The position numbers and the translations under genes are program-made. From positions 1-35,504 of the forward strand of contig NZ_PJCF01000016.1 of the NCBI RefSeq assembly GCF_002835935.1: DNA of 35,504 bases, written 5' to 3'. The stretch is from Paraglaciecola sp. MB-3u-78 (GTDB lineage: Bacteria; Pseudomonadota; Gammaproteobacteria; Enterobacterales; Alteromonadaceae). The notes under the pieces are model-generated. The model saw only the letters and a program-made list of their open reading frames with translations. It was not told the origin of the DNA and made no database searches. Below, in pieces: positions 1 to 31,118 of this stretch. The stretch's first letter is position 1. Each line of letters begins with the position of its first letter.

Positions 1-24
1 ACTTGACCGGAGAGGGCTAATGAG
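1..24 (+). mobile_element. Right end of a second IS1111-like element (partial)
   Basis: The first 24 bases are identical to the last 24 or so bases of the IS110/IS1111 element that ends at 18599. They include the subterminal inverted repeat GGAGAGGGCTA at 9-19. The identity stops at TGACCCC, exactly where the complete copy also meets its target. This is therefore the right end of another copy whose body lies upstream of the window. The call rests on sequence identity alone. Confidence 0.75.
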
Positions 25-25
25 T

Positions 26-52
26 GACCCCGTTCCGCAAGACCCCGTTCCG
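26..52. repeat. Two direct GACCCCGTTCCG units
   Basis: GACCCCGTTCCG occurs at 26-37 and 41-52, separated by CAA. The TGACCCC core is the one shared by all RAYT-type terminal repeats in this window. The pair looks like a third sequence family of the same kind of terminal repeat, here serving as the insertion target of the IS ending at base 24. Confidence 0.6.
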
Positions 53-902: not shown

Positions 903-1833
903 GCTGGGGTCAAGTCTTGAATTTTGCATGTCTCCCTTTTTAAACTATGGTTATTTTATTCATATCTAGTTTAGACGAGAGAAAATATGAGTCGGCCATT
1001 ACGATTAGAGTTTGCCGGTGCGCTTTATCATATTACCTCACGGGGCAACGGTAGAAACTTGATCTATCTTCAGGATGATGATTTTGAGTTGTTTCTGCAG
1101 ATTTTAGCTAACGTGTGTGAGCGCTATAATTGGGTTGTTCACGCGTATTGTTTAATGAGTAACCATTACCACCTTTTAGTTGAGACACCGGATGCCAACC
1201 TTAGTCAGGGGATGCGCCAGTTAAATGGTGTTTTTACGCAATCGATGAATCGTAAACACCACCGAGTAGGGCATTTATTTCAGGGAAGATACAAGGCTAT
1301 TCTGATAGATAAAGATGCTTACCTGCTGGAACTATGCCGCTACATTGTTTTAAACCCTGTGCGAGCCAACATGGTGAACTCGCCTGAGGAATGGCCCTGG
1401 TCTAGCTGGCATTGCATGTTGGGCAACGTTGAGTCGCCTGTATGGTTGTCGACAGATACTTTACTTGTTCAATTTGCTAAAAATCGACAAGATGCGATCC
1501 AAAGCTATATTGACTTTGTTAAATCGGGTATTGGCAAAACCGTTTGGGATACTTTGCAGCATCAGATATTTTTAGGCGATGAGGCTTTTGTTGCAAGGCA
1601 TCAAGCAATGCAAGATGGGTTGGAAGGTGATTTACTCGAAATTCCTTTTAAACAGCGCAGTGCTGCACCATTGCCGCTTGCTGAATACCAAGCTCAAACT
1701 GTTGATAAGCATCAAGCCATCTATAATGCCTACCGCTCTGGTGGCTATACGCAAAAACAAATAGGTGATTATTTTGGCTTACATTATTCTCAAATAAGTC
1801 GCCTTGTTGCAAAATACAAGACTTGACCCCAGC
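903..1833 (+). mobile_element. RAYT element with terminal inverted repeats
   Basis: The left terminus (903-927) and right terminus (1809-1833) are inverted repeats of 25 bp with one mismatch; the outer 17 bp, GCTGGGGTCAAGTCTTG at the left, are perfect. They contain TCAAG-T-CTTGA, itself a small palindrome. Between them lies a 60-bp leader and one transposase gene. The transposase stop codon is inside the right terminal repeat, so its last codons are part of the repeat. Both ends carry tandem partial copies of themselves. Classical IS200/IS605 elements lack such inverted repeats, whereas RAYT genes are usually bracketed by inverted REP sequences. Confidence 0.8.
987..1826 (+). CDS. REP-associated tyrosine transposase (RAYT, Y1 HUH type)
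   Basis: A 279-aa HUH-superfamily single-strand transposase. The HUH motif is HYH in LMSNHYHLLVETP (about residues 58-70). The motif CRYIVLNPVRAN (about residues 117-128) carries the tyrosine that makes the covalent 5'-DNA link in this family. MRQLNGVFTQSMNRKHHRVGH and LFQGRYKA are further RAYT signatures. The C-terminus (GGYTQKQIGDYFGLHYSQIS) is a helix-turn-helix that would bind DNA. GAGAG sits about 8 nt before the ATG. The last codons and the stop lie in the right terminal repeat. The family mobilises or maintains REP-like palindromes; the gene looks intact. No second ORF is present. Confidence 0.92.
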   Translation: MSRPLRLEFAGALYHITSRGNGRNLIYLQDDDFELFLQILANVCERYNWVVHAYCLMSNHYHLLVETPDANLSQGMRQLNGVFTQSMNRKHHRVGHLFQGRYKAILIDKDAYLLELCRYIVLNPVRANMVNSPEEWPWSSWHCMLGNVESPVWLSTDTLLVQFAKNRQDAIQSYIDFVKSGIGKTVWDTLQHQIFLGDEAFVARHQAMQDGLEGDLLEIPFKQRSAAPLPLAEYQAQTVDKHQAIYNAYRSGGYTQKQIGDYFGLHYSQISRLVAKYKT

Positions 1834-17028: not shown

Positions 17029-17062
17029 TTTTATTCACCAAATAGGCAAAACGCAAGACCTG
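17029..17062 (+). repeat. First unit of repeat array B, split by the IS
   Basis: TTCACCAAATAGGCAAAACG followed by CAAGACCTGA matches the unit at about 18751-18785. In that unit the sequence continues ACCCCAACACA; here it is interrupted by the IS1111-like element after the TG. Removing the IS joins CAAGACCTG to ACCCCAACACACA and rebuilds a normal unit of the array. Confidence 0.8.
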
Positions 17063-17148
17063 ATAATCATATAGCAATCTCCTACGTGTCGAGCTTAAAT
17101 TATGTGTTGACCAAAACACTTTTTAAACACAAACACGAGGAGATTGAG

Positions 17149-18162
17149 ATGAAACTATATGGCGGGATTGACTTACATTCAAATAATAGTGTTATTGCGA
17201 TTAAAGATGACAACGGCAAAGTACTCGTTTGTAAAAAATTGCCTAATGATTGGGAGCTGATACAGCGATTCCTTGAACCATACAAAGAGATGTTAATAGG
17301 ATTAGTCATCGAGTCGACCTATAACTGGTATTGGCTTGTGGATGCTTTAATAGGCGCCAAGTTCTGTGTTCACTTGGCCAACACGGCGGCTATCCAACAG
17401 TACTCGGGGTTAAAGTATGCTGATGATAATAGTGATGCACAATGGTTGGCTGAAATGCTTAGACTTAATATTTTACCTGAAGGGTATATTTACCCTAAAG
17501 AGGAACGAGCAGTGCGAGATCTGATGCGCAAACGCATGAATCTGGTACAACAATCAACAGCAAACTTGTTGTCTATTCAGGGCATATACATGCGTCATCT
17601 AAGCTACAGGCTCAGTAATAACAAAATAAAACAGCTTACCTGCGAGCAAATAGCACAAGATCATACTGCAAACACAGCACAAGCGGTGACAGCCACCCTC
17701 AATGTTATGAATTGTCTTAAAAATGAAATTAAGCAGATTGAAAGTGCTTTATTAGTACAAGTAAAACTAAGAGCTGAATTTAAATCACTGAGTAGCATTG
17801 ATGGTATTGGCAATATTCTGGCCCTGACTATTATGCTAGAAACAGGTGATATTAAACGCTTTAACAAGCCAGGGAATTATGCCTCCTATTGCCGTTGTAT
17901 CGGTGGAGCGCGCTATAGCAACGGTAAAAAGAAAGGGGGAAGCAATAGCAAAAATGGCAATAAATATCTGGCATGGGCTTTTGTCGAAGCGGCTAATTTT
18001 GCTATTCGCCACAACAAAATAGTCAAAAGCTATTACCAGCGAAAAGCCGCTAAAACGAATCAAATTATCGCTATAAAGACGGTTGCCCATAAGCTTGCAA
18101 GGGCCTGTTTTTATGTATTAAGAGACCAGGTGGAATTTGATGCCAATAAAGCTTTTTGTTAA
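17149..18162 (+). CDS. IS110/IS1111 family DEDD transposase
   Basis: A 337-aa recombinase. I choose the ATG at 17149 because GAGGAGA lies just upstream and the next residues, KLYGGIDLHSNNSVIAI, begin the RuvC-like domain. The DEDD set is visible as the D of GGIDLH, the E of LVIESTYNWYW and the DD of KYADDNSDAQWLAE. The Tnp domain has FKSLSSIDGIGNILALTIML (helix-hairpin-helix), RFNKPGNYASYCRC and GGSNSKNGNKYLAWAFVEAA, where the family's catalytic serine resides (SNSKNGN). In this family the enzyme is directed by a bridge RNA (seekRNA) from the same element that base-pairs with donor and target. It looks intact. Confidence 0.93.
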   Translation: MKLYGGIDLHSNNSVIAIKDDNGKVLVCKKLPNDWELIQRFLEPYKEMLIGLVIESTYNWYWLVDALIGAKFCVHLANTAAIQQYSGLKYADDNSDAQWLAEMLRLNILPEGYIYPKEERAVRDLMRKRMNLVQQSTANLLSIQGIYMRHLSYRLSNNKIKQLTCEQIAQDHTANTAQAVTATLNVMNCLKNEIKQIESALLVQVKLRAEFKSLSSIDGIGNILALTIMLETGDIKRFNKPGNYASYCRCIGGARYSNGKKKGGSNSKNGNKYLAWAFVEAANFAIRHNKIVKSYYQRKAAKTNQIIAIKTVAHKLARACFYVLRDQVEFDANKAFC

Positions 18163-18172
18163 CCAGTTTGGC

Positions 18173-18369
18173 TAAGGTGATGAGTTATACGCGGGGTTGG
18201 TAAAACCATTAGACCTGATTAAACCATCACCTTACCCAATCCAATCCAATGAAGTTGAAAAATGAATATGCCCACACTCATAGCTATAACGGGTTGGACT
18301 GTCTTTATTAGGCTGAGCCATAGATCTGTTAACGAGTCGTTTCGCGACTCAGAACTGGAATGAGTGTGG
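18173..18369 (+). ncRNA. Candidate bridge RNA (seekRNA) of the IS
   Basis: Two strong stem-loops follow the transposase gene. Stem 1 pairs TAAGGTGATG (18173-18182) with CATCACCTTA (18225-18234). Its 42-nt loop is capped by a small TGGT-AAA-ACCA hairpin and has CGCGGGGT on its 5' side (18190-18197) and AGACCTGA on its 3' side (18211-18218). Stem 2 pairs CCACACTCAT (18272-18281) with ATGAGTGTGG (18360-18369), with an inner GAGTCG/CGACTC hairpin. The interrupted repeat on the minus strand is GGGGTCAGGTCT: GGGGT equals the 5' side, and AGACCTG is the complement of the rest. This is the layout of a target-binding loop. Both ends of the RNA are guesses. Confidence 0.55.
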
Positions 18370-18599
18370 CACTAAAAAATGACTGAGGCGAAAGCCAAGA
18401 GCAGTAGCCTTCCATGAACACGGCAGGCTACACCGCTTTAATTCAGATGAGTGACTGGTGCGTATTCACACCAACGACGTAATTTTTAGGAGCATATAAA
18501 TAATCAGCTGCAAAGGATGGAACAAGCACAACGATTTACTTAGTTGAAATAAAACATAAGGGATGACGCATACCTACTTGACCGGAGAGGGCTAATGAG

Positions 18600-18812
18600 T
18601 GACCCCAACACACACAAGACCTGACCCCAACACACAGGCACAACACAGTTTCATTTTTTTGCAGTTTGGCAAAACGCAAGACCTGACCCCAACACACCCA
18701 TGACCCCAACACACCCACAGTTTGGCAAAACGCAAGACCTGACCCCAACACACATTTTTCACCAAATAGGCAAAACGCAAGACCTGACCCCAACACATGT
18801 GACCCCAACACA
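18600..18812 (+). repeat. Array B of RAYT-type 3' terminal units
   Basis: GACCCCAACACA begins at 18601, 18623, 18685, 18702, 18741, 18786 and 18801. Most copies are preceded by CAAGACCT, and three also by GGCAAAACG; one extends back to TTCACCAAATAG. As in the array after the RAYT gene, the outer end is fixed and the inner end varies. GGCAAAACGCAAGACCTGACCCC is clearly homologous to GCAAAATACAAGACTTGACCCC of family A but is a distinct lineage. No transposase of this lineage is in the window. The array overruns the 3' end of an IS1595 gene. Confidence 0.85.
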
Positions 18813-20844: not shown

Positions 20845-21183
20845 ATTATTTTCCTAATGTGTTAGAGGTAAAGCCTTAATTATTGTCAGTTTTTAAACTA
20901 CATACTTTAAATCGTGAACAAGACCTGCAGTTAAAGAGCAACTCAAATTGGCAATCGCCCTTAGTTTTCCAAGCTAGTTATTTCAATACTAAAGACTTAA
21001 TTTTACCGACATTATCATCAATTGAGAATGAGGGTGAGCTTATTAAAAACTGAACACAAAGCATGTCTGAATGATGTGATTGACCGAAAAGTGCAAACAT
21101 TTGTGCGTTTAGGACTAACCCTAAAAGCGAAAATCAATTAGAGTTTTAGAATATTGTTTGAATCACAAACTGGGAGAAAAGAT
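20845..21183. other. Divergent intergenic region before the first giant protein
   Basis: It separates the glycoside-hydrolase-like gene from the 1535-aa protein gene. It contains the conserved element at 21080-21110, described separately. There is no ORF of its own and I see no convincing riboswitch. Confidence 0.4.
21080..21110 (+). promoter_or_regulatory. Conserved upstream element, copy 1
   Basis: TTGACCGAAAAGTGCAAACA followed by TTTGTGCGTTT occurs 74 bp before the ATG of the first giant protein. A copy with about two differences in 30 lies upstream of the second. It contains a TTGACC that could be a -35 box and an imperfect palindrome CAAA-CA-TTTG. The surrounding DNA of the two copies is unrelated. 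Confidence 0.5.
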
Positions 21184-24100
21184 ATGTTTGCAGTATACAA
21201 AGGTAGAGGGAGCTCACAAGCAGGAGGATTAACAGGCTTTCTTATTCTGATGCTAATTATATTTCAGTCTTCTTTTGCTCATGCTGCAGATAAGCTGATA
21301 ATTAAGAGCATTAAAGCGCAAAAGACGGCTCACGGCTTAGATTCGAGTTCAAAAACCGGCTTTGCTGCGCTTGGTGCCGCAATTGGCGTTGCGGCTGCAT
21401 CGGCAGCAGCCCCTGCCACAGCAGGCCTTTCCACCTTTGCTGCAATAAAAGCTGGCGGTAGCGGTGGCGGAGCAGCACTTGCAGCAGCGGATTTATTAGA
21501 TGGTAAGTATAGTGGCCAAGACGATTTGATTGTGCGGGTCAATGGTAGGAAAGTCTGGCCAATAGGTGTCGGATTCCAGCCAATGAACCCTGGTGAGGAA
21601 ATTTTTCCAAATATTGAGGCTTCATTTGAATTTGGTGTGCGTATTCAGCTTGTAGAGTATGACTCGGGCAGTGATGATGATGATTTAGGTGCACTGGATA
21701 TCAGTAGCACGTTTTATGATTTAACCGACCCAGGTGCAGATTATGGAAAAGATCAGGTTATAGTACTGTCTCCTTCAGATGAAGATGGCAGCATTTACCT
21801 TATCACCTATGTTGTGTTGCGTAACCAAGGCGACCCATCACAAGTCGTCAAAAGCATGATTTGCGGAACCGCCCAATGTAATGCCTGTTTTAATGCCGCG
21901 TGTGTTGGTCAGCAGATATCCCATCTTGATAGGGATGGCGATTTAGAAGATTTAAAGAGTTGCCCTTATCCTTTCGTAACCACTGGTTTTCAAAAATTTC
22001 CTCAGTTTATAGTTGATGATGTTTACCTGAGGGTGTGTGGTACGCCTTGTCCAGTATTAGCGCCCACTACTCTGACTGCAAGTTTACCCTCGCCTGGAAG
22101 GCCTTTAATCACTTGGAGTCCCATTAGCGAAGCTGATCGTTATTTGGTTACTGAAAAAAATCAATTTGGACAAGTGACGAACAGTTTTTCTACTTTTGAG
22201 CCAAGATTTTCGCGTACTCATTCTAAGGCCCCTACGTTTAATCCAGGAACCTATACATACAGCGTAATAGGTATGAATATAGACAGTATCGTTGCTAGCA
22301 GAAGTAATGGGACTGAAGGCGTATGTCTAGGTACTGCTAGCAAATCTGTCAGCATTTTTGTTCCCTTAACCCCAGTGTTGGTTGATGTTGAGGTGGAGAG
22401 TGAAGATGCAGTTGGCCTTGGCACAGGTACAGTGGACCTCAGTCCAGAGCCGGTAACGGAAATTGGCGGCAAATATTATACACCTGGTCAGGTGGTCACC
22501 TTTACCGCAAAAGCAGAAAGCCGCTCAGAATTTGTCGGATGGAGCGGTAACCCACTTTGTTCTGATGATAAATTAACCTGCGACATCACCATTGTGACGG
22601 GTGCACCAGTAAATGTGAAAGCCATTTTTAGACCCAAACCTCGCTTGGTTATTTACACTGTGGGCATTTCAAATGCAGCTGATGGAGTAAATGTTTTCCC
22701 CAAAGGAAATGTGTGTAACAACGTAGCTTATACATGTTTTGAATATGACACAGGCGACGCTGTGTCAATAGCCGGTATCACAGATGCCAATACAGGCGTG
22801 GCATTCGATCGCTGGAGTGGCGATGAAGACTGCAGTGATGGCAGTGTAACAGTGGATAAAAATATTACCTGCACTGCTGTTTTTAAAAGGACCTCTTACG
22901 ATTTAACCATCACGCCGTCTGCTGGTAGTAAAGTGATCTCAGATACCGGCTCAATTGACTGTGGTGAACTTTGTAGCGCCAGTTACCCGGTGGATGACAG
23001 CAGTTTCAAAGTGGTTGAGTTGTTAACTGCCACTATTAATCCTGATTTCACATTTGTTCGCTGGGTTGGTGCCAGCGGTTGTTGGGATGCAAACACCTTG
23101 ATTAACATTAACGACCCCTTAAAAAGAAGTATAGCTGTGGGGGATAAAGATGTGAATTGCGGCGTTATTGCCGTGCCTGAAGACACGGTTTATGCTCTGA
23201 CTATTGAAAAGTTAGGAGGGGGGACGGTTAAGGCCGCAGCAACACCCTTTGTTGACTCCTCTGACATTCTTATTTGTCCTGCCGGTCATGCCTGCACGGT
23301 AGAGTACCCGGTGAATGCTCAAGTGACTCTTACCGCTAAGGCCACCCGTGGCTCTGAGTTTGTCGGCTTTGAATCATCTGATGTGGGCAGTGACAACTAC
23401 AGACGAGAAGACGATGACTGTATCGATGGCCAGATCAGTATGATTGAAAGCCTGAGCTGTGTTGCTACCTTTAAAACCAATATTTTGGTCGTCAATGGCG
23501 CAGATGATGATAAATCGAAAGAGGATAATGAATATATCGGTGTGCTCAATAATATGGATTCAGTGGATTACGATATCTGGCATATAAAACATCCTACTTC
23601 TGGCGATAACACTTTTGATACCACAACAAATCAGCGCCGGGTCGAGCCTAGTGCAGAAGATTTGGCCAATTATGGCCGGGTGATCTGGTATACGGGCAAT
23701 GCTGGTACAGAACGGGCTGTTGCGTCCCTAAAAGCAGGGCCAAGTGAAGCCGCAGAGGCAAGCTTGGCAAGCTACCTAGATTCGGGTGGATGTTTATTGA
23801 TGAGCGGTCCAGAGTATTTTAAAGACCGAGGACTCACACCTTTCATGAAAAATTATTTGGGTGTCAGCGGTATCACCGAAGATGTAGAAGCTTCATATAT
23901 TAAGGGAGCTGGTGATGCCATTTTTGGTTTTGACACACTCACTGAAGAGTCATTTAAAGGCGCAAGTTCAGAAGGGTATTTTCGTTTTCAGGGTAGTTTC
24001 CCTCCATACAGTAGTGATGCCTTGATCCCTAACCCGGATATAGCGGATGGTAATATTTTGTTTACTTACCAAGATGATGACTTTGGTAATATTAGAAGCA

Positions 24101-25791
24101 GAGGTGACGCTGCAATCGCCATAGATACGGGTACTTATCGAGCGGCGTTCTTTGGTTTTCCTTTTCTGGGGATCTCCAGTGGTGAGCGCCAGAATAATAC
24201 CATGCGCACCTTTCTGGATTTTTGTGGTCGACCTGAAAATGACGATACGTTTGAGGTCAATGATGACTTTGATAGTGCCTCGGAACGCAAAGGCTCTTTT
24301 ATTCTCGATAATATGAAAGTATTCAAAGGTAATGACGACTACTTTAAGTGGACCTCCGATTTTTATGGTCAAGGAACGCTTGTTTTACAGTTTGATAATT
24401 CAGAGGATACCTTTGGCATCGAAATCTATGATAGTCAGTTTTCATCGTTACATCAGACTGAATTTACTACCAGTACTACATTTCCATTAACTAATTTGGA
24501 CGAGGATGACATTTTTTATATCCGAATCTACGGCGTGGACGAGGCTACTGGTGAATACTCATTAACTATTAGTTATATTGGTGCCCCTGACCGTGATCAT
24601 GACGGCACACCAGACAGTGAAGATGCGTTACCTGAAGATGCATTCGAGCAGTTTGATAATGATGGTGACTTTATTGGCGACACCGTCGACACCGATGACG
24701 ACAATGATGGTTTGCCAGATTTATGGGAAATACAGTTTGGATTTGATCCCTTAGTGGCAAACGATGAAGACGCTGATACTGATGCAGATACTTTTACTGA
24801 TCTTCAGGAGTTTCGCCTAGACACAAATTCGAATGATGCAAGTTCGTTTCCAGTGCCTGCCGCATTGCCGGTGAGCGTTTCAATCAATCAAAGAAAAAAC
24901 GACGTGGACGGCGACGGTAAATCTGACTTGTTATGGCGCAGTGAAGCCAAAGGCTGGAACTTCTTGTGGTCGATGGATGGAGTAAAAACCAAACAGGCAT
25001 CACCGATTAATGTGGTGCAGGATGATGGTTGGTTAATGGCGGGTCAGGGCGACTATGACGCGGACGGTAAGTCAGACATCTTGTGGCGCAATACACTCAC
25101 TGGTCTGAACTTTATCTATCTGATGGATGGCTTGACGATTAAAACCCGTAAGGTGCTCAACTTTGTCGATGCACCGCAGTGGGAGTTGCGGGGCAGTGGT
25201 GACTTTAATGGTGACGGTAAAGGGGATGTATTGTGGCGTGATGTGGTGCGAGGGCGCACCCATTTCTTCCTGATGGATGGCCTGAGTATTGGCACTAACC
25301 AACCAGGATTGTTGGTCACTGACTTGAACTACAAGATAGTGGCGATAGGGGATATTAACGGCGATGGCACAGATGATGTGATTTGGCGTAATCAAGCTAC
25401 AGGTGTGAACTATATCTGGATAATGGTAAATGGCCAGATAGCTAGCCGTTATGTGCTCAATACTATTAATGATGATTGGACGATAGCCGGGGCCGGAGAT
25501 TTGGACGGCGATGGCACCGACGATATCATCTTGCGCAACCAGGTGGATGGCCGTAACTGGGCGTATTTGATGGAAGACGGTCAAATCAAGGCCAGTGAGC
25601 TTATCAATACGGTCGGCGATACCAACTGGCAGATAGCCAACATGGGTGATTACGATGGCGATGGCAAGGTGGATATTTTGTGGCGCAATGAAAACGCAGC
25701 CAGAAACATCGTGCATCTTATGGATGGGCTATCGGTGCACGCCAAAGGGGTGTTAAGGCCCACCGACAATACTTGGCAGTTGGCGCAATAG
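21184..25791 (+). CDS. Giant secreted multidomain surface protein (InlB-like repeats, PPC, TSP3, VCBS)
   Basis: 1535 aa from ATG 21184, which has GGGAGAAAAG upstream. Order: signal peptide (LTGFLILMLIIFQSSFAHA); Ala/Gly-rich hydrophobic stretch (about 50-90); cysteine-bearing segment; Fn3-like domain (LITWSPISEADRYLV); four divergent InlB B-type repeats, each ending with F-x-x-W/F-x-x...C...C-x-A-x-F; a Rossmann-like amidotransferase-type domain from TNILVVNGADDD to RTFLDFCG; a PPC domain (about 1028-1140); calcium-binding TSP3 repeats (DTDDDNDGLPD); and six FG-GAP/VCBS-like repeats of about 49 aa such as DYDADGKSDILWRN. A strong terminator follows. Probably an exported adhesin or matrix protein; no catalytic motif is obvious. 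The C-terminal 900 bp are shared with the next gene. Confidence 0.85.
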   Translation: MFAVYKGRGSSQAGGLTGFLILMLIIFQSSFAHAADKLIIKSIKAQKTAHGLDSSSKTGFAALGAAIGVAAASAAAPATAGLSTFAAIKAGGSGGGAALAAADLLDGKYSGQDDLIVRVNGRKVWPIGVGFQPMNPGEEIFPNIEASFEFGVRIQLVEYDSGSDDDDLGALDISSTFYDLTDPGADYGKDQVIVLSPSDEDGSIYLITYVVLRNQGDPSQVVKSMICGTAQCNACFNAACVGQQISHLDRDGDLEDLKSCPYPFVTTGFQKFPQFIVDDVYLRVCGTPCPVLAPTTLTASLPSPGRPLITWSPISEADRYLVTEKNQFGQVTNSFSTFEPRFSRTHSKAPTFNPGTYTYSVIGMNIDSIVASRSNGTEGVCLGTASKSVSIFVPLTPVLVDVEVESEDAVGLGTGTVDLSPEPVTEIGGKYYTPGQVVTFTAKAESRSEFVGWSGNPLCSDDKLTCDITIVTGAPVNVKAIFRPKPRLVIYTVGISNAADGVNVFPKGNVCNNVAYTCFEYDTGDAVSIAGITDANTGVAFDRWSGDEDCSDGSVTVDKNITCTAVFKRTSYDLTITPSAGSKVISDTGSIDCGELCSASYPVDDSSFKVVELLTATINPDFTFVRWVGASGCWDANTLININDPLKRSIAVGDKDVNCGVIAVPEDTVYALTIEKLGGGTVKAAATPFVDSSDILICPAGHACTVEYPVNAQVTLTAKATRGSEFVGFESSDVGSDNYRREDDDCIDGQISMIESLSCVATFKTNILVVNGADDDKSKEDNEYIGVLNNMDSVDYDIWHIKHPTSGDNTFDTTTNQRRVEPSAEDLANYGRVIWYTGNAGTERAVASLKAGPSEAAEASLASYLDSGGCLLMSGPEYFKDRGLTPFMKNYLGVSGITEDVEASYIKGAGDAIFGFDTLTEESFKGASSEGYFRFQGSFPPYSSDALIPNPDIADGNILFTYQDDDFGNIRSRGDAAIAIDTGTYRAAFFGFPFLGISSGERQNNTMRTFLDFCGRPENDDTFEVNDDFDSASERKGSFILDNMKVFKGNDDYFKWTSDFYGQGTLVLQFDNSEDTFGIEIYDSQFSSLHQTEFTTSTTFPLTNLDEDDIFYIRIYGVDEATGEYSLTISYIGAPDRDHDGTPDSEDALPEDAFEQFDNDGDFIGDTVDTDDDNDGLPDLWEIQFGFDPLVANDEDADTDADTFTDLQEFRLDTNSNDASSFPVPAALPVSVSINQRKNDVDGDGKSDLLWRSEAKGWNFLWSMDGVKTKQASPINVVQDDGWLMAGQGDYDADGKSDILWRNTLTGLNFIYLMDGLTIKTRKVLNFVDAPQWELRGSGDFNGDGKGDVLWRDVVRGRTHFFLMDGLSIGTNQPGLLVTDLNYKIVAIGDINGDGTDDVIWRNQATGVNYIWIMVNGQIASRYVLNTINDDWTIAGAGDLDGDGTDDIILRNQVDGRNWAYLMEDGQIKASELINTVGDTNWQIANMGDYDGDGKVDILWRNENAARNIVHLMDGLSVHAKGVLRPTDNTWQLAQ
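24897..25791 (+). repeat. C-terminal VCBS module, copy 1
   Basis: This 895-bp segment is duplicated at 30226-31118. A central block (about 25127-25505 against 30462-30840) differs at only a handful of positions, and the last 80 bp of shared sequence are identical. Between them, and at the left edge, the copies differ more, mostly at third codon positions. The mosaic suggests repeated gene conversion. Confidence 0.85.
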
Positions 25792-26336: not shown

Positions 26337-29300
26337 ATGAATTTCTATAAGAAGCGCCAGTCTATGTCGCAATCGTTCAATAAAGTCAGTTTACTGACAC
26401 TAATTTGTTTGCTGAGCTCGCCAGTGATGGCGGCCACTCCTGGCTTGCCTTTTACCGAAGACTTTTCAGACCAGACATTAATGGATAGCAGTCAAACCAC
26501 GGCAAATTGGTCTACCGAAGAAAAAGCCGTGGCATTGGCCTGGCATACACAACGCTTGCAGCAATTACCGGATGGCGCTACTCCCCGCAGCGCCCTTGTT
26601 GGTACTGACGAGGATGAAACCTTTTCACTCACCCTTGGGGATATCGACGGCGATGGTGACCTTGATGTGCTCGCGGGTAACTTGAATCAAACCAACAAGC
26701 TGTACCTGAATAATGGCAGTGGTGGTTTTAGCACGGCTGGCGTAAACATTGGCAGTGAGACGAATAGCACCCTCTCGCTGACCCTTGGGGATATTGACGG
26801 CGATGGTGATTTGGATGTGCTGGCAGGTAATGAGGGTCAAACCAACAAGCTATACCTGAATAATGGCAGTGGCAGTTTTAGCACGCTTGGCGTAAACATT
26901 GGCAATGAGACGGATAATACCCGTGCGCTCACCCTAGGGGATATCGACGGCGATGGGGATTTGGATGTGCTGGCGGGTAATCTTAATGCAACCAACAAGC
27001 TTTACCTAAATAATGGCAGTGGTGGTTTTAGCCCAACGGGCTTGGATATTGGCAATGAGACGGATACCACCCTCGTGCTTACCCTTGGTGATATCGACGG
27101 CGATGGTGATTTGGACGTGCTGGCGGGTAATAATGGTCAACCCAACAAGCTGTACCTGAATATTGGCAGTGGCAATTTTAGCGTCGGAGATAATATTAGC
27201 AGTGAGGCAGATAATATCGTCGCACTTATCCTTGGTGATATCGACGGCGATGGTGATTTGGACCTGCTGGCGGGTAATTTTAATGCAACCAACAAGCTTT
27301 ACCTGAATGATGGCAGTGGTGGTTTTAGCGCCGGAAATAATATTGGCAGTGAGGCGGGTAGAACCCTCGCGCTCGCCCTAGAAGATATTGACGGCGATGG
27401 TGATTTGGATGTGTTGTCGGGTAATCAGGGTCAAAACACGCTGTATCTGAATAATGGCAGTGGTGGTTTTAGTGAGGCGGGCTTCAACATTGGCAGTGAG
27501 ACGGATAATACCCGTACACTCACCCTTGGAGATATCGACGGCGATGGTGATTTGGACGTGCTGGCAGGTAATTTTAATGCAACCAACAAGCTGTACCTGA
27601 ATGCTGGCAGTGGCGGTATTAGCACGGCTGGCTTCAACATTGGCAGTGAGACGGATAATACCCTTGCACTCACCCTTGGAGATATCGACGGCGATGGTGA
27701 TTTGGACGTGCTGGTGGGTAATCTGGGTCAAAACAAGCTGTACCTAAATAATGGCAGTGGCGGTTTTAGCGAGGTGGGCTTCAATATTGGCGGTGAGACG
27801 GATAATACTCGTACGCTCACCCTTGGAGATATCGACGGCGATGGGGATTTGGACGTACTGTTGGGTAATAATGGTCTAAACAAGCTGTACTTGAATGATG
27901 GCACTGGCGGCTTTGGCGAGACGGGCGTAAACATTGGAAGTGAGACGGGTAACACCTATGAGCTTACCCTTGGGGATATCGACGGCGATGGTGATTTGGA
28001 TGTGCTGGTGGGTAATTTCGACCAAGCCAACAAGCTGTATCTGAATAATGGCAGTGGCGGTTTTAGCGAGGTGGGCTTCAACATTGGCGGTGAGACGGAT
28101 AATACTCGTACGCTCACCCTTGGAGATATCGACGGCGATGGGGATTTGGATGTGTTGGCGGGTAATTTCGGCCAAGCCAACAAGCTGTACTTGAATGATG
28201 GCAGTGGCGGTTTTAGCACGGCTGGCGTAAACATTGGCGGTGTGCCGAATAGCACCTTAGCACTTATCCTTGGTGATATCGACGGCGATGGTGATTTGGA
28301 CGTGCTGGCGGGTAATTATAATGTAACCAACAAGCTTTACCTGAATGATGGCAGTGGTGGTTTTAGCGCCGGAGATAATATTGGCAGTGAGGCGGGTAGT
28401 ACCCTCACGCTCGCCCTAGAAGATATTGACGGCGATGGGGATTTGGATGTGTTGGCGGGTAATCAGGGTCAAAACACGCTGTATCTGAATAATGGCAGTG
28501 GTGGTTTTAGTGAGGCGGGCTTCAACATTGGCAGTGAGACGGGTAACACCTATGCGCTTACCCTTGGGGATATTGACGGCGATGGTGATTTGGACGTGCT
28601 GGCGGGTAATTATAATGCAACCAACAAGCTATACCGGAATAATGGCAGCGCCGGTTTTAGTGCCGCGGGCTCAGATATTGGCAATGAGAGCGATATCACC
28701 CACTTGCTAACCCTGGGTGATATTGATGGCGATGGTGATTTGGACGTACTGACGGGTAATTATAATGCAACCAACAAGCTGTACCGGAATAATGGCAGTG
28801 GTGGTTTTAGCACGCCTGGCGTAAACATTGGCAATGAGGAGGATGAAACCATTTCACTCACCCTAGGGGATATCGACGGCGATGGTGATTTGGATGTGCT
28901 AGCGGGTAATAATACAACAGCAACCAATAAGTTATACCTGAATAATGGCAGTGGCGGTTTTAGTGAGGTGGGCGTAAGCATTGGCAGTGAGACGGATAGA
29001 ACCTGGGCGCTGAGCCTTGGGGATATCGACGGCGATGGTGATTTGGACGTGCTGGCGGGTAATGTTCTCGAAAACAAGCTGTATCTAAATGATGGTAGTG
29101 GTGGTTTTAGCCCGACGGGCTTGGATATTGGCAATGAGAGGGATACCACCCTCGCGCTAACCCTGGGTGATATTGATGGCGATGGTGATTTGGACGTGCT
29201 GGCGGGTAATTTTAATGCAACCAACAAGCTGTACCTAAATAATGGCAGTGGTGGTTTTAGCCCAACGGGCTTGGATATTGGCAATGAGGGGGATAGCACC

Positions 29301-31118
29301 CGTGCGCTTACCCTTGGGGATATCGACGGCGATGGTGATTTGGACGTGCTGGCGGGTAATTATAGTCGTCAAACCAACAAGCTGTACCTGAATAATGGCA
29401 GTGGCGGTTTTAGCCCGGCGGGCGTAAACATTGGCAGTGAGTTTGATGAAACCTATGCGCTCGTTCTTGGCGATATCGACGGCGATGGAGATTTGGATGT
29501 GCTGGCGGGTAATTTTAATCAAAGCAACAAGCTGTACCTAAATGAGGGCAGTGGTAGTTTTAGCACGACGGGCGTAAACATTGGCAATGAGAGGGGTAGC
29601 ACCCTTGCGCTTACCCTTGGGGATATCGACGGCGATGGGGATTTGGATGTGCTGGATGGTAATAATGGCGCAAACAAGCTGTATCGCCAGGTCAGCTTTA
29701 TGACGCATGCTGGGCGGGTTGTTTCAAACAAGGTTAATGATACTGAAACCGATATTTTGGCGCTTAGGTTTAATGTCACTCAAACTAGCAACACGCCCAC
29801 GACGCGCAATACCCGCATCGATTATTATGTATCGAATAATGGTGGTATTCAATGGCATCAGGTCACGCCGGGTCATGTCTTTGCTTTTCCTGATGCGGGC
29901 ACTGACGATTTGCGCTGGAAAGCCCAATTGCGTTCGCTGTCACCCTCTCGCACGCCTTTATTGTCACAAGTGACGCTTGAGCAAGTTGACCCTGACGATT
30001 TGGATGGTGATGGGATTGACAATGAAAATGATGCCTATCCACTTATTTCAATTGGTGATTATGTTGATACCGACAACGACGGTGCACCGGATGAGTGCGA
30101 TGCGGCTTGTATATCCCTTGGCATGGCAGCTGACACTGACGATGACAATGACGGTGTATTGGATGTAGATGATGCATTTCCTCTTGATCCTACAAAATCG
30201 CAAAACACAACTCAGCAAAAAGTCAAAAGCGACGTGGATGGCGATGGTAAATCAGACTTGTTATGGCGCAGCAATGCTAAAGGTTGGAACTTTTTATGGT
30301 CGATGGATGGTGTAAAAACCAAACAAGCCAAACCGATTAATGTGGTACAAGATGAAGGTTGGCTGATGGCGGGTCAGGGTGATTATGACGCCGATGGTCA
30401 TTCGGATATCTTGTGGCGTAATACGCTCACCGGCATGAACTTTATTTACCTGATGGATGGCTTGACGATTAAAACCCGTAAGGTGCTCAACTTTGTCGAT
30501 GCACCGCAGTGGGAGTTGCGGGGCAGTGGTGACTTTAATGGCGACGGTAAAGGGGATGTATTGTGGCGTGATGTGGTGCGAGGGCGCACCCATTTCTTCC
30601 TGATGGATGGTCTCAGTATTGGCACTAACCAACCAGGATTGTTGGTCACCGACTTGAACTACAAGATAGTGGCGATAGGGGATATTAACGGCGATGGCAC
30701 AGATGATGTGATTTGGCGTAATCAAGCTACAGGTGTGAACTATATCTGGATAATGGTAAATGGCCAGATAGCTAGCCGTTATGTGCTCAATACTATCAAC
30801 GGGGATTGGACGATAGCCGGGGCCGGAGATTTGGATGGCGATGGTACCGATGACATGATTTTACGTAACCAAGTAGATGGTCGTAACTGGGCGTATTTGA
30901 TGGAAAGCGGTCAAATCAAGACCAGTGAGCTTATCAATACGGTAGGTATGGGCTGGCAAATTGCTGACATGGGCGATTATGATGGAGACGGTAAGGCAGA
31001 CTTGTTATGGCGCAATGAAAGCACGGCTAGAAACATCGTGCATCTTATGGATGGGCTATCGGTGCACGCCAAAGGGGTGTTAAGGCCCACCGACAATACT
31101 TGGCAGTTGGCTAAGTAA
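26337..31118 (+). CDS. Giant secreted FG-GAP/VCBS repeat protein
   Basis: 1593 aa; AAGGAG precedes the ATG. Order: signal peptide (cut after SSPVMA, about residue 32); a short domain, LPFTEDFSDQTLMDSSQTTA to LAWHTQRLQQLPDG; 21 tandem repeats of about 47-51 aa (residues about 97-1118); a beta domain (residues about 1119-1220, SFMTHAGRVVSNKV onward); TSP3 repeats (DTDNDGAPDECDAACISLG); and six VCBS repeats shared with the upstream gene. Each central repeat has GDIDGDGDLDVLAGN, a calcium-loop motif of the FG-GAP type, then NKLYLNNGSGGFS. Such arrays fold as beta-propellers that bind calcium. Positions just after LAGN and in the IGxETDxT segment vary between repeats. Role probably adhesion or matrix. 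Confidence 0.88.
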   Translation: MNFYKKRQSMSQSFNKVSLLTLICLLSSPVMAATPGLPFTEDFSDQTLMDSSQTTANWSTEEKAVALAWHTQRLQQLPDGATPRSALVGTDEDETFSLTLGDIDGDGDLDVLAGNLNQTNKLYLNNGSGGFSTAGVNIGSETNSTLSLTLGDIDGDGDLDVLAGNEGQTNKLYLNNGSGSFSTLGVNIGNETDNTRALTLGDIDGDGDLDVLAGNLNATNKLYLNNGSGGFSPTGLDIGNETDTTLVLTLGDIDGDGDLDVLAGNNGQPNKLYLNIGSGNFSVGDNISSEADNIVALILGDIDGDGDLDLLAGNFNATNKLYLNDGSGGFSAGNNIGSEAGRTLALALEDIDGDGDLDVLSGNQGQNTLYLNNGSGGFSEAGFNIGSETDNTRTLTLGDIDGDGDLDVLAGNFNATNKLYLNAGSGGISTAGFNIGSETDNTLALTLGDIDGDGDLDVLVGNLGQNKLYLNNGSGGFSEVGFNIGGETDNTRTLTLGDIDGDGDLDVLLGNNGLNKLYLNDGTGGFGETGVNIGSETGNTYELTLGDIDGDGDLDVLVGNFDQANKLYLNNGSGGFSEVGFNIGGETDNTRTLTLGDIDGDGDLDVLAGNFGQANKLYLNDGSGGFSTAGVNIGGVPNSTLALILGDIDGDGDLDVLAGNYNVTNKLYLNDGSGGFSAGDNIGSEAGSTLTLALEDIDGDGDLDVLAGNQGQNTLYLNNGSGGFSEAGFNIGSETGNTYALTLGDIDGDGDLDVLAGNYNATNKLYRNNGSAGFSAAGSDIGNESDITHLLTLGDIDGDGDLDVLTGNYNATNKLYRNNGSGGFSTPGVNIGNEEDETISLTLGDIDGDGDLDVLAGNNTTATNKLYLNNGSGGFSEVGVSIGSETDRTWALSLGDIDGDGDLDVLAGNVLENKLYLNDGSGGFSPTGLDIGNERDTTLALTLGDIDGDGDLDVLAGNFNATNKLYLNNGSGGFSPTGLDIGNEGDSTRALTLGDIDGDGDLDVLAGNYSRQTNKLYLNNGSGGFSPAGVNIGSEFDETYALVLGDIDGDGDLDVLAGNFNQSNKLYLNEGSGSFSTTGVNIGNERGSTLALTLGDIDGDGDLDVLDGNNGANKLYRQVSFMTHAGRVVSNKVNDTETDILALRFNVTQTSNTPTTRNTRIDYYVSNNGGIQWHQVTPGHVFAFPDAGTDDLRWKAQLRSLSPSRTPLLSQVTLEQVDPDDLDGDGIDNENDAYPLISIGDYVDTDNDGAPDECDAACISLGMAADTDDDNDGVLDVDDAFPLDPTKSQNTTQQKVKSDVDGDGKSDLLWRSNAKGWNFLWSMDGVKTKQAKPINVVQDEGWLMAGQGDYDADGHSDILWRNTLTGMNFIYLMDGLTIKTRKVLNFVDAPQWELRGSGDFNGDGKGDVLWRDVVRGRTHFFLMDGLSIGTNQPGLLVTDLNYKIVAIGDINGDGTDDVIWRNQATGVNYIWIMVNGQIASRYVLNTINGDWTIAGAGDLDGDGTDDMILRNQVDGRNWAYLMESGQIKTSELINTVGMGWQIADMGDYDGDGKADLLWRNESTARNIVHLMDGLSVHAKGVLRPTDNTWQLAK
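26628..29690 (+). repeat. 21-copy tandem repeat of about 150 bp
   Basis: The codon string for GDIDGDGDLDVL recurs 21 times with a period of about 140-153 bp, always in frame. Repeats 5-6 and 12-13 (with ALEDIDGDGDLDVL and NQGQNTLYLNNG) match each other better than their neighbours. So do repeats 8 and 10, and 3 and 18. This indicates block duplication inside the array as well as unit-by-unit homogenisation. Confidence 0.9.
30226..31118 (+). repeat. C-terminal VCBS module, copy 2
   Basis: Second copy of the module at 24897-25791, including the stop-proximal sequence. The preceding TSP3 segment (about 30051-30190) is in turn nearly identical to segments at about 34165-34290 and 34305-34430 in the next gene, so the three genes share parts pairwise. 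Confidence 0.85.

Follow-up and report, generated by a model that had tools for sequence, protein, structure and literature searches.

A 35,504-nucleotide stretch of the Paraglaciecola sp. MB-3u-78 genome (contig NZ_PJCF01000016.1; hereafter the window) carries an insertion sequence that is very probably an IS1111 element with a guide RNA encoded downstream of its transposase gene, and this RNA would steer insertion at a TG core into the end repeats of TIRYT elements and into arrays derived from them. An earlier reading of the sequence alone (the sequence-only reading) had placed the element at 17063..18602, splitting a unit of a repeat array (array B). We found the interrupted unit, CAAGACC/TG/ACCCC (slashes mark junctions), and the start as described, whereas the end moves to 18601, position 18602 being already the A of ACCCC. 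The features of the element are as follows.

17063..18601, forward strand: IS1111-type insertion sequence (junctions read; further copies; relatives)
17054..17062, forward strand: left target half CAAGACC and core TG (junctions; guide-flank matching)
18600..18606, forward strand: core TG and right target half ACCCC, GGGGTCA on the minus strand (junctions; guide-flank matching)
17149..18162, forward strand: DEDD transposase, 337 aa, PF01548 and PF02371 (domain search)
17072..17082, forward strand: left subterminal inverted repeat TAGCAATCTCC (by eye)
18584..18594, reverse strand: right subterminal inverted repeat TAGCCCTCTCC (by eye)
18578..18583, forward strand: TTGACC, -35 half of a possible circle-junction promoter (sequence)
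17062..17067, forward strand: GATAAT, -10 half of the same possible promoter (sequence)

The left junction reads ...CAAGACC/TG/ATAATCA... and the right junction ...GAG/TG/ACCCCAACAC, with TG at both (17061-17062 and 18600-18601); this 2-bp core can be assigned to either side of the element. Joining the two flanks gives CACCAAATAGGCAAAACGCAAGACCTGACCCCAACACA, which is identical to an intact unit further along array B, and so the insertion left no duplication except TG. Both transposase domains (DEDD_Tnp_IS110 and Transposase_20) scored over their cut-offs, and the protein fits the 330-350 aa given for IS1111 transposases (PMC11187229). The gene is preceded by 86 nt of non-coding DNA and followed by 437 nt (18163 to 18599); in ISEc11 a downstream non-coding region is needed for transposition (PMC11187229). 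The subterminal inverted repeats agree at 9/11 positions (by eye, without a shuffled control), and their 11 bp fit the 7-17 bp given for IS1111 (PMC11208160). Joining the ends into a circle would place GATAAT 17 bp from TTGACC; among relatives, TTGAC recurs in 51/56 joined ends and is accompanied by a -10-like hexamer at 16-18 bp in 48/56 (consensus only, without a shuffled control), a comparison by which a promoter-like circle junction is kept in the group. None of the defining IS1111 features that we tested failed. As a separate observation, the C-terminal serine motif of the transposases in this clade is S-N-G (YSNGKKK in the window), and of the 46 rows that make up the 15 commonest motif forms, 43 have S-N (93 rows entered, not all matching the expression). 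Elsewhere in the window, an IS1595-type transposase (PF12762 and PF12760; 18759-19601) lies directly behind array B, and two very long open reading frames occupy 21154-25791 (1545 aa) and 26337-31118 (1593 aa).

Besides the complete copy (17063-18601), the genome holds three partial ones, one of which opens the window.

1..26, forward strand: right end of a further IS copy at the contig edge, then ACCCC (copy search)

Contig C7 carries a 5' part of the element with left flank CAAGACC/TG, which adjoins sequence matching the 5' region of the window's Y1 transposase gene (by eye), and C23 carries a 3' fragment with ACCCC directly after its end; two of the own-genome copies are broken off inside a contig. 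A same-genus genome (G001) has a broken copy, 96% identical, again with ACCCC after the right end. The sequence-only reading had expected further copies at GGGGTCA sites, and we found none outside this motif and none with both flanks known. Beyond the motif, the outer flanks of the copies differ (ACCCCAACAC, ACCCCGTTCC, ACCCCACGAT), and the conserved part is therefore the target. These copies bear on the alternative that survives best, namely that the element came to lie in the array mainly through duplication and recombination of units and Y1 remnants, without homing. The arrays do consist of repeats, 3' pieces of the Y1 gene recur in them, and the two truncations within contigs could be read the same way; however, the junctions fall at the same TG in distant hosts and the outer flanks of the copies are not shared. 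We consider this account improbable as the main route, although it is compatible with guided insertion.

The guide itself is predicted to lie in a hairpin downstream of the transposase gene.

18168..18239, forward strand: predicted seekRNA/bridge-RNA hairpin (fold; arm covariation)
18173..18182, forward strand: 5' arm TAAGGTGATG of a 10-bp stem (sequence)
18225..18234, forward strand: 3' arm CATCACCTTA of the 10-bp stem (sequence)
18190..18197, forward strand: guide segment 1, CGCGGGGT, complement of the right target half (top strand) (guide-flank matching)
18211..18217, forward strand: guide segment 2, AGACC and core TG, identical to the left target half as read on the top strand (guide-flank matching)

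Both the perfect 10-bp stem (18173-18182 with 18225-18234) and the two loop segments pointed out earlier are present, GGGGT answering to the right half and AGACCTG being the left half with the core. The region folds with z = -3.4, and 1/200 shuffles was as stable. Conservation of the stem by covariation, on which the sequence-only reading had staked its case, emerged from an arm-swap test, in which the loci's own arms scored a mean of 10.3 vs. 5.5 for swapped arms (0/5,000 permutations as high; 71/73 loci over their own median swapped score, and 34/73 best or tied with their own partner); where several candidate loops existed, the choice was made partly by stem quality, so that this test leans towards the true pairing. 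In a single MAFFT register, 65.4% of cells paired vs. 59.7% in shuffles, yet a one-column shift gave 66.1%; groups differ from each other in loop length by a single base. Rfam at its gathering threshold gave no match within the window, and so no curated bridge-RNA model backs the hairpin.

We next compared guides with flanks across relatives. A scan of genome contigs returned 383 relatives, of which the best 80 were used; together with the window and 12 loci of its own and related genomes they make 93 loci, 78 of them with a recognisable loop (the 15 without one include L010, L011 and L142, for which the loop was picked out by eye). These tests excluded loci that lacked a flank or whose end deviated from the consensus at more than two positions, and relatives from nine further genomes found by a class search (L154-L162, L164) stood outside them. 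The left guide agreed with its flank at 253/360 positions (60 loci; 128.6 expected on flank shuffling) and the right guide at 308/354 (59 loci; 216.3 expected), and none of 20,000 shuffles came as high on either side. When each distinct guide was counted once, agreement was 195/282 vs. 94.0 expected on the left and 196/222 vs. 124.0 on the right (0/20,000 each), and right guides without ACCCC agreed at 122/132 positions vs. 63.0 expected (0/20,000). Sliding the left flank of the distinct guides by 1, 2 or 3 bases lowered the matches from 195 to 83, 65 and 64 of 282. The match between loop and target is thus no accident. The left match spans about 5 nt plus TG and the right one 5-9 nt; poor left matches (2/6) occurred in the distinct-guide list at L054, L069, L073 and L074. 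Viral contigs scanned with the transposase yielded five stretches that fit a pattern, none of them a relative, and a plasmid collection at E <= 1e-60 yielded 16 records, every one below 60% identity.

A further explanation holds that the transposase protein alone recognises the site and that the likeness of the loop arises by chance or shared ancestry. The raw match is partly inherited, since close relatives share guide and target, and one guide type (AGAnn with ACCC) accounts for 29/78 looped rows. On the other hand, the match persists when each distinct guide is counted once, the transposase tree shows at least 10 changes of the AGAnn class, and guide and flank change together in unrelated ways: L021 and L022 have loop CCCTGTGT with flank ACACAGGG, and L056 has loop TACCGTTGT with flank ACAACGGTA. 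Recognition by protein alone is, on this evidence, very improbable. Least probable of all is that the loop is a captured copy of flanking DNA and not the director of insertion, which would likewise yield co-variation of guide and flank, but the segments sit at fixed places in a co-varying hairpin, one of them inverted, in the order found in IS1111 seekRNAs, and near-identical copies within one genome (L016-L018) have A[CT]CCC in common and differ immediately after it.

The guides fall into classes that can be followed base by base. The right half is of ACCC type in 51/78 loci and is combined with an AGAnn left half in 29/78, whose hosts belong by record name to Pseudomonadota, Nitrospirota, Acidobacteriota, Myxococcota, Thermodesulfobacteriota and others; many of these are metagenome-assembled genomes, and contamination may explain individual cases. 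Where the left end of an AGAnn locus is well called, guide and flank carry identical bases at the two variable positions in 18/23 loci (a 24th, L014, has an unread flank (N) and is outside the count), and 4/5 mismatching loci show guide T vs. flank C, a combination that would be open to G-U pairing. Guide AGACT is found with flank AGACT in 4/4 such loci (L015, L023, L032, L062), AGACG with AGACG in 2/2 (L012 and L013, two copies of one genome, both counted) and AGATG with AGATG in 1/1 (L048). Two misfits, L060 (guide AGACT, flank AGATG) and L057 (guide AGATT, flank AGACC), have a left end three places off the consensus and are outside the 23-locus count. It had been suggested that the guide would tell family B from family A; this single-base tracking bears it out across relatives, and the genome itself, with two IS copies of known left flank and 17 B vs. 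12 A sites, is consistent with it. The transposase tree requires 14 changes of the AGAnn class, of which well-supported branches force at least 10, vs. 24.9 with shuffled labels (L030 and L141, frameshifted or broken, lie on very long branches and their placement is unsure). These changes indicate that guides have been rewritten repeatedly; natural guide reprogramming has been described for ISEc11 and ISXne4 (PMC11187229).

The landing site had been called a RAYT repeat, and this holds in so far as the repeats are ends of Y1 transposase elements; they are not classical REPs, and we refine the assignment to the TIRYT/TIRtron kind.

987..1826, forward strand: TIRYT/RAYT-like gene (Y1_Tnp, weak HTH_23), flanked on either side by array A ends CAAGACTTGACCCC (domain and motif search)
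18615..18791, forward strand: four intact target units CAAGACCTGACCCC of array B (motif search)

Intact exact sites in the genome number 12 for array A (CAAGACTTGACCCC) and 17 for array B (CAAGACCTGACCCC), and CAAGACYTGACCCC occurs 29 times; the reversed control patterns gave none. The stop codon of the Y1 gene at 987..1826 is the TGA of its own end repeat, and its HTH_23 scores 20.9 bits against a cut-off of 24.6 (in 2/4 other Y1 genes the HTH is likewise weak and below cut-off). Behind this gene, at 1829-2100, its 3' end with the end repeat is tandemly repeated, and this array seems to grow by the copying of gene ends. With CAAGACC ends we found remnants in the genome, but no intact Y1 gene. 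Other Y1 subfamilies in the same genome have similarly built ends, CAAGCAACT/TGACCCC and TTTGTTC/TGACCCCGATAGTT.

In the 33 genomes holding IS relatives, CAAGANNTGACCCC occurs 106 times in 20 (reversed control, 3); the 13 hosts that lack the intact site comprise 7 that carry an AGAnn-guide IS and 6 with another guide type. At least 20 of the 106 occurrences lie within 1 kb of a Y1 gene, among the Y1 genes listed, and 19 of those 20 keep a fixed distance from the Y1 domain, 67-114 bp ahead of it or 480-510 bp behind it (the remaining one is 764 bp away). Where both ends of a Y1 gene were seen, they were inverted. For the eight Y1 genes with a 3' motif, the TGA of the motif is the stop in five (the window's gene, L167, L168, L169 and L177), the stop falls just before the motif in two, and L170 has its frame interrupted before this point. 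Since the first IS base behind the core TG is A, an insertion there would preserve TGA as the stop. In G119, G120 and G126 (e.g. G119:C684) we also observed pairs of end motifs facing outwards about 30-110 bp apart, a spacing that leaves no room for a Y1 gene and suggests MITE- or REPIN-like derivatives.

A canonical REP of the GT[AG]G type was considered as target and set aside, the ends reading CAAGACC TGACCCC with no GT[AG]G head by eye. The published consensus of TIRYT terminal inverted repeats is GGGGWSAS (PMC3733652), and of 26 described TIRYTs, 20 are placed in subclass 2.1, in which, by the part of PMC6006769 drawn on here, no REP-like sequences were found. The CAAGACC-type end GGGGTCAG fits this consensus, the array A end GGGGTCAA departs from it at the last base, and several Y1 genes are bordered by inverted ends; a Y1 gene between inverted repeats with GGGGWSAS is the arrangement that defines TIRYT/TIRtron elements. 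By its sequence, then, the target fits the end repeats of TIRYT/TIRtron-kind Y1 elements, a RAYT-superfamily branch that lacks canonical GTAG REPs.

We also asked how IS loci relate to the Y1 ends of their own hosts. Summed scores, taken first (25/33 IS loci usable), gave the weaker result: 307 of 20,000 genome swaps were as high for the 5-nt guide, 396 for the 8-nt flank and 859 for the 6-nt flank. Perfect-match counts, chosen after seeing these, used 24 loci with TGACCCC-type ends near same-host Y1 genes (L029 was dropped for its short flank): the 8-nt left flank equalled a Y1-element end of the same host in 7/24 loci (1.1 expected with genomes swapped; 1/20,000 as high), and the 5-nt guide did so in 8/24 (mean 3.8; 151/20,000). 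A Y1 gene lies 41-79 bp off the IS left end in 6/67 left flanks (L015, L023, L033, L048, L049, L053), and none lies within 100 bp of the right end in 67 right flanks. The Y1 gene adjacent to L049 showed no inverted target copy at its far end and is not counted as proof of a Y1-element end; towards the far end of the one adjacent to L053 (left flank, -772) stands GAGCCTGGCCCC in inverted orientation, similar to the target that the guide of this IS predicts.

Two further IS1111 lineages of the genus sit in the ends of other Y1 families. The second lineage (L010, L011, L142; 47-49% identical) is found in CGAACC/TGACCCCGCAGGT with loop TTTGCGGGGTTGG, and the guide of L010/L011 agrees in its right half and poorly in its left (2/5 by eye); the CGAACC/TGACCCCGCAGGT repeat occurs 15 times in G019 and flanks Y1 gene L256 in G001 on both sides (up to two mismatches). 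The third (L144, left end called with three mismatches) lies in TTTGTTC/TGACCCCGATAGTT, a sequence that forms the end of a Y1 gene on contig C13 of the MB-3u-78 genome.

The claim that the IS is RNA-programmed to home into the ends of another transposon family draws its support from the co-variation of guide and flank, and the transposition step may be pictured as follows. The non-coding region downstream of the transposase would be transcribed into a guide RNA (a seekRNA or bridge RNA) and form a ribonucleoprotein with the transposase; one loop segment would pair with ACCCC, the right half of the target on its top strand, and the other with the bottom strand opposite AGACCTG (left half and core), and the DEDD transposase would recombine a circular intermediate into the TG core of TIRYT end repeats and derived arrays, directed by the RNA. 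The GGGGT guide half would read the motif common to the ends, the other half would pick the subfamily, and such a landing site might bring the element some benefit. On balance we lean towards a wider reading, held with considerably less assurance, in which an RNA-guided IS1111 clade spread over several phyla is a specialised TIRYT parasite, its GGGGT half held and its other half rewritten after diverging subfamilies, so that lineages of one genus divide the TIRYT families among themselves.

The proposed mechanism is of the known seekRNA/bridge-RNA kind, and IS1111 members that target REPs or Tn21 ends are known. IS4321 is reportedly an IS1111 element that homes into the ends of Tn21-family transposons; here, in contrast, the ends are those of Y1 (HuH) elements, and several subfamilies are matched by different guides. 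Like the IS1111 seekRNA elements ISEc11, ISPa11, ISKpn4 and ISPst6, as far as the portion of PMC11187229 used here describes them, the present element has a DEDD transposase of similar length, a downstream non-coding region and subterminal inverted repeats, and its top-strand match lies 5' of the bottom-strand match; it differs in its class of target, in a guide RNA that is predicted from sequence, and in a serine motif S-N-G where those have S(t)G. A promoter at the circle junction is described for ISEc11, and a promoter-like consensus is seen here. With IS621 it shares a two-part guide around a 2-bp core, and the natural target of IS621 lies in REP elements, but the IS621 guide lies upstream of tnp with core CT, and here it would lie downstream with core TG (PMC11208160, in part). 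ISPa11, ISPpu9, ISPpu10 and ISRm19 are likewise IS110-family elements inside repeats thought to be spread by Y1 transposases; by the parts of PMC1525189 and PMC8450116 consulted, their targets are REPs, whereas here they are non-canonical ends of the form ...TGACCCC. The TIRYT/TIRtron elements (TnpA_REP subclass 2.1; PMC3733652 and PMC6006769, in part) are the owners of the landing site and not the IS. The term IS110 has no occurrence in PMC3733652 and one, as a comparison, in PMC6006769, and a literature search of open-licence papers, among the titles listed, found neither the motif letters nor IS110/IS1111 in TIRYT ends. What looks new, judged from the loci compared, is a clade that would have rewritten one guide half again and again and so followed the TIRYT subfamilies. 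The natural series of guides and targets, varying base by base, makes the pairing rules of IS1111 seekRNAs readable (half length, wobble, core); it adds an occupant to the little-studied TIRYT elements, and it presents one mobile element that apparently relies on an RNA guide to settle in the ends of a second one.
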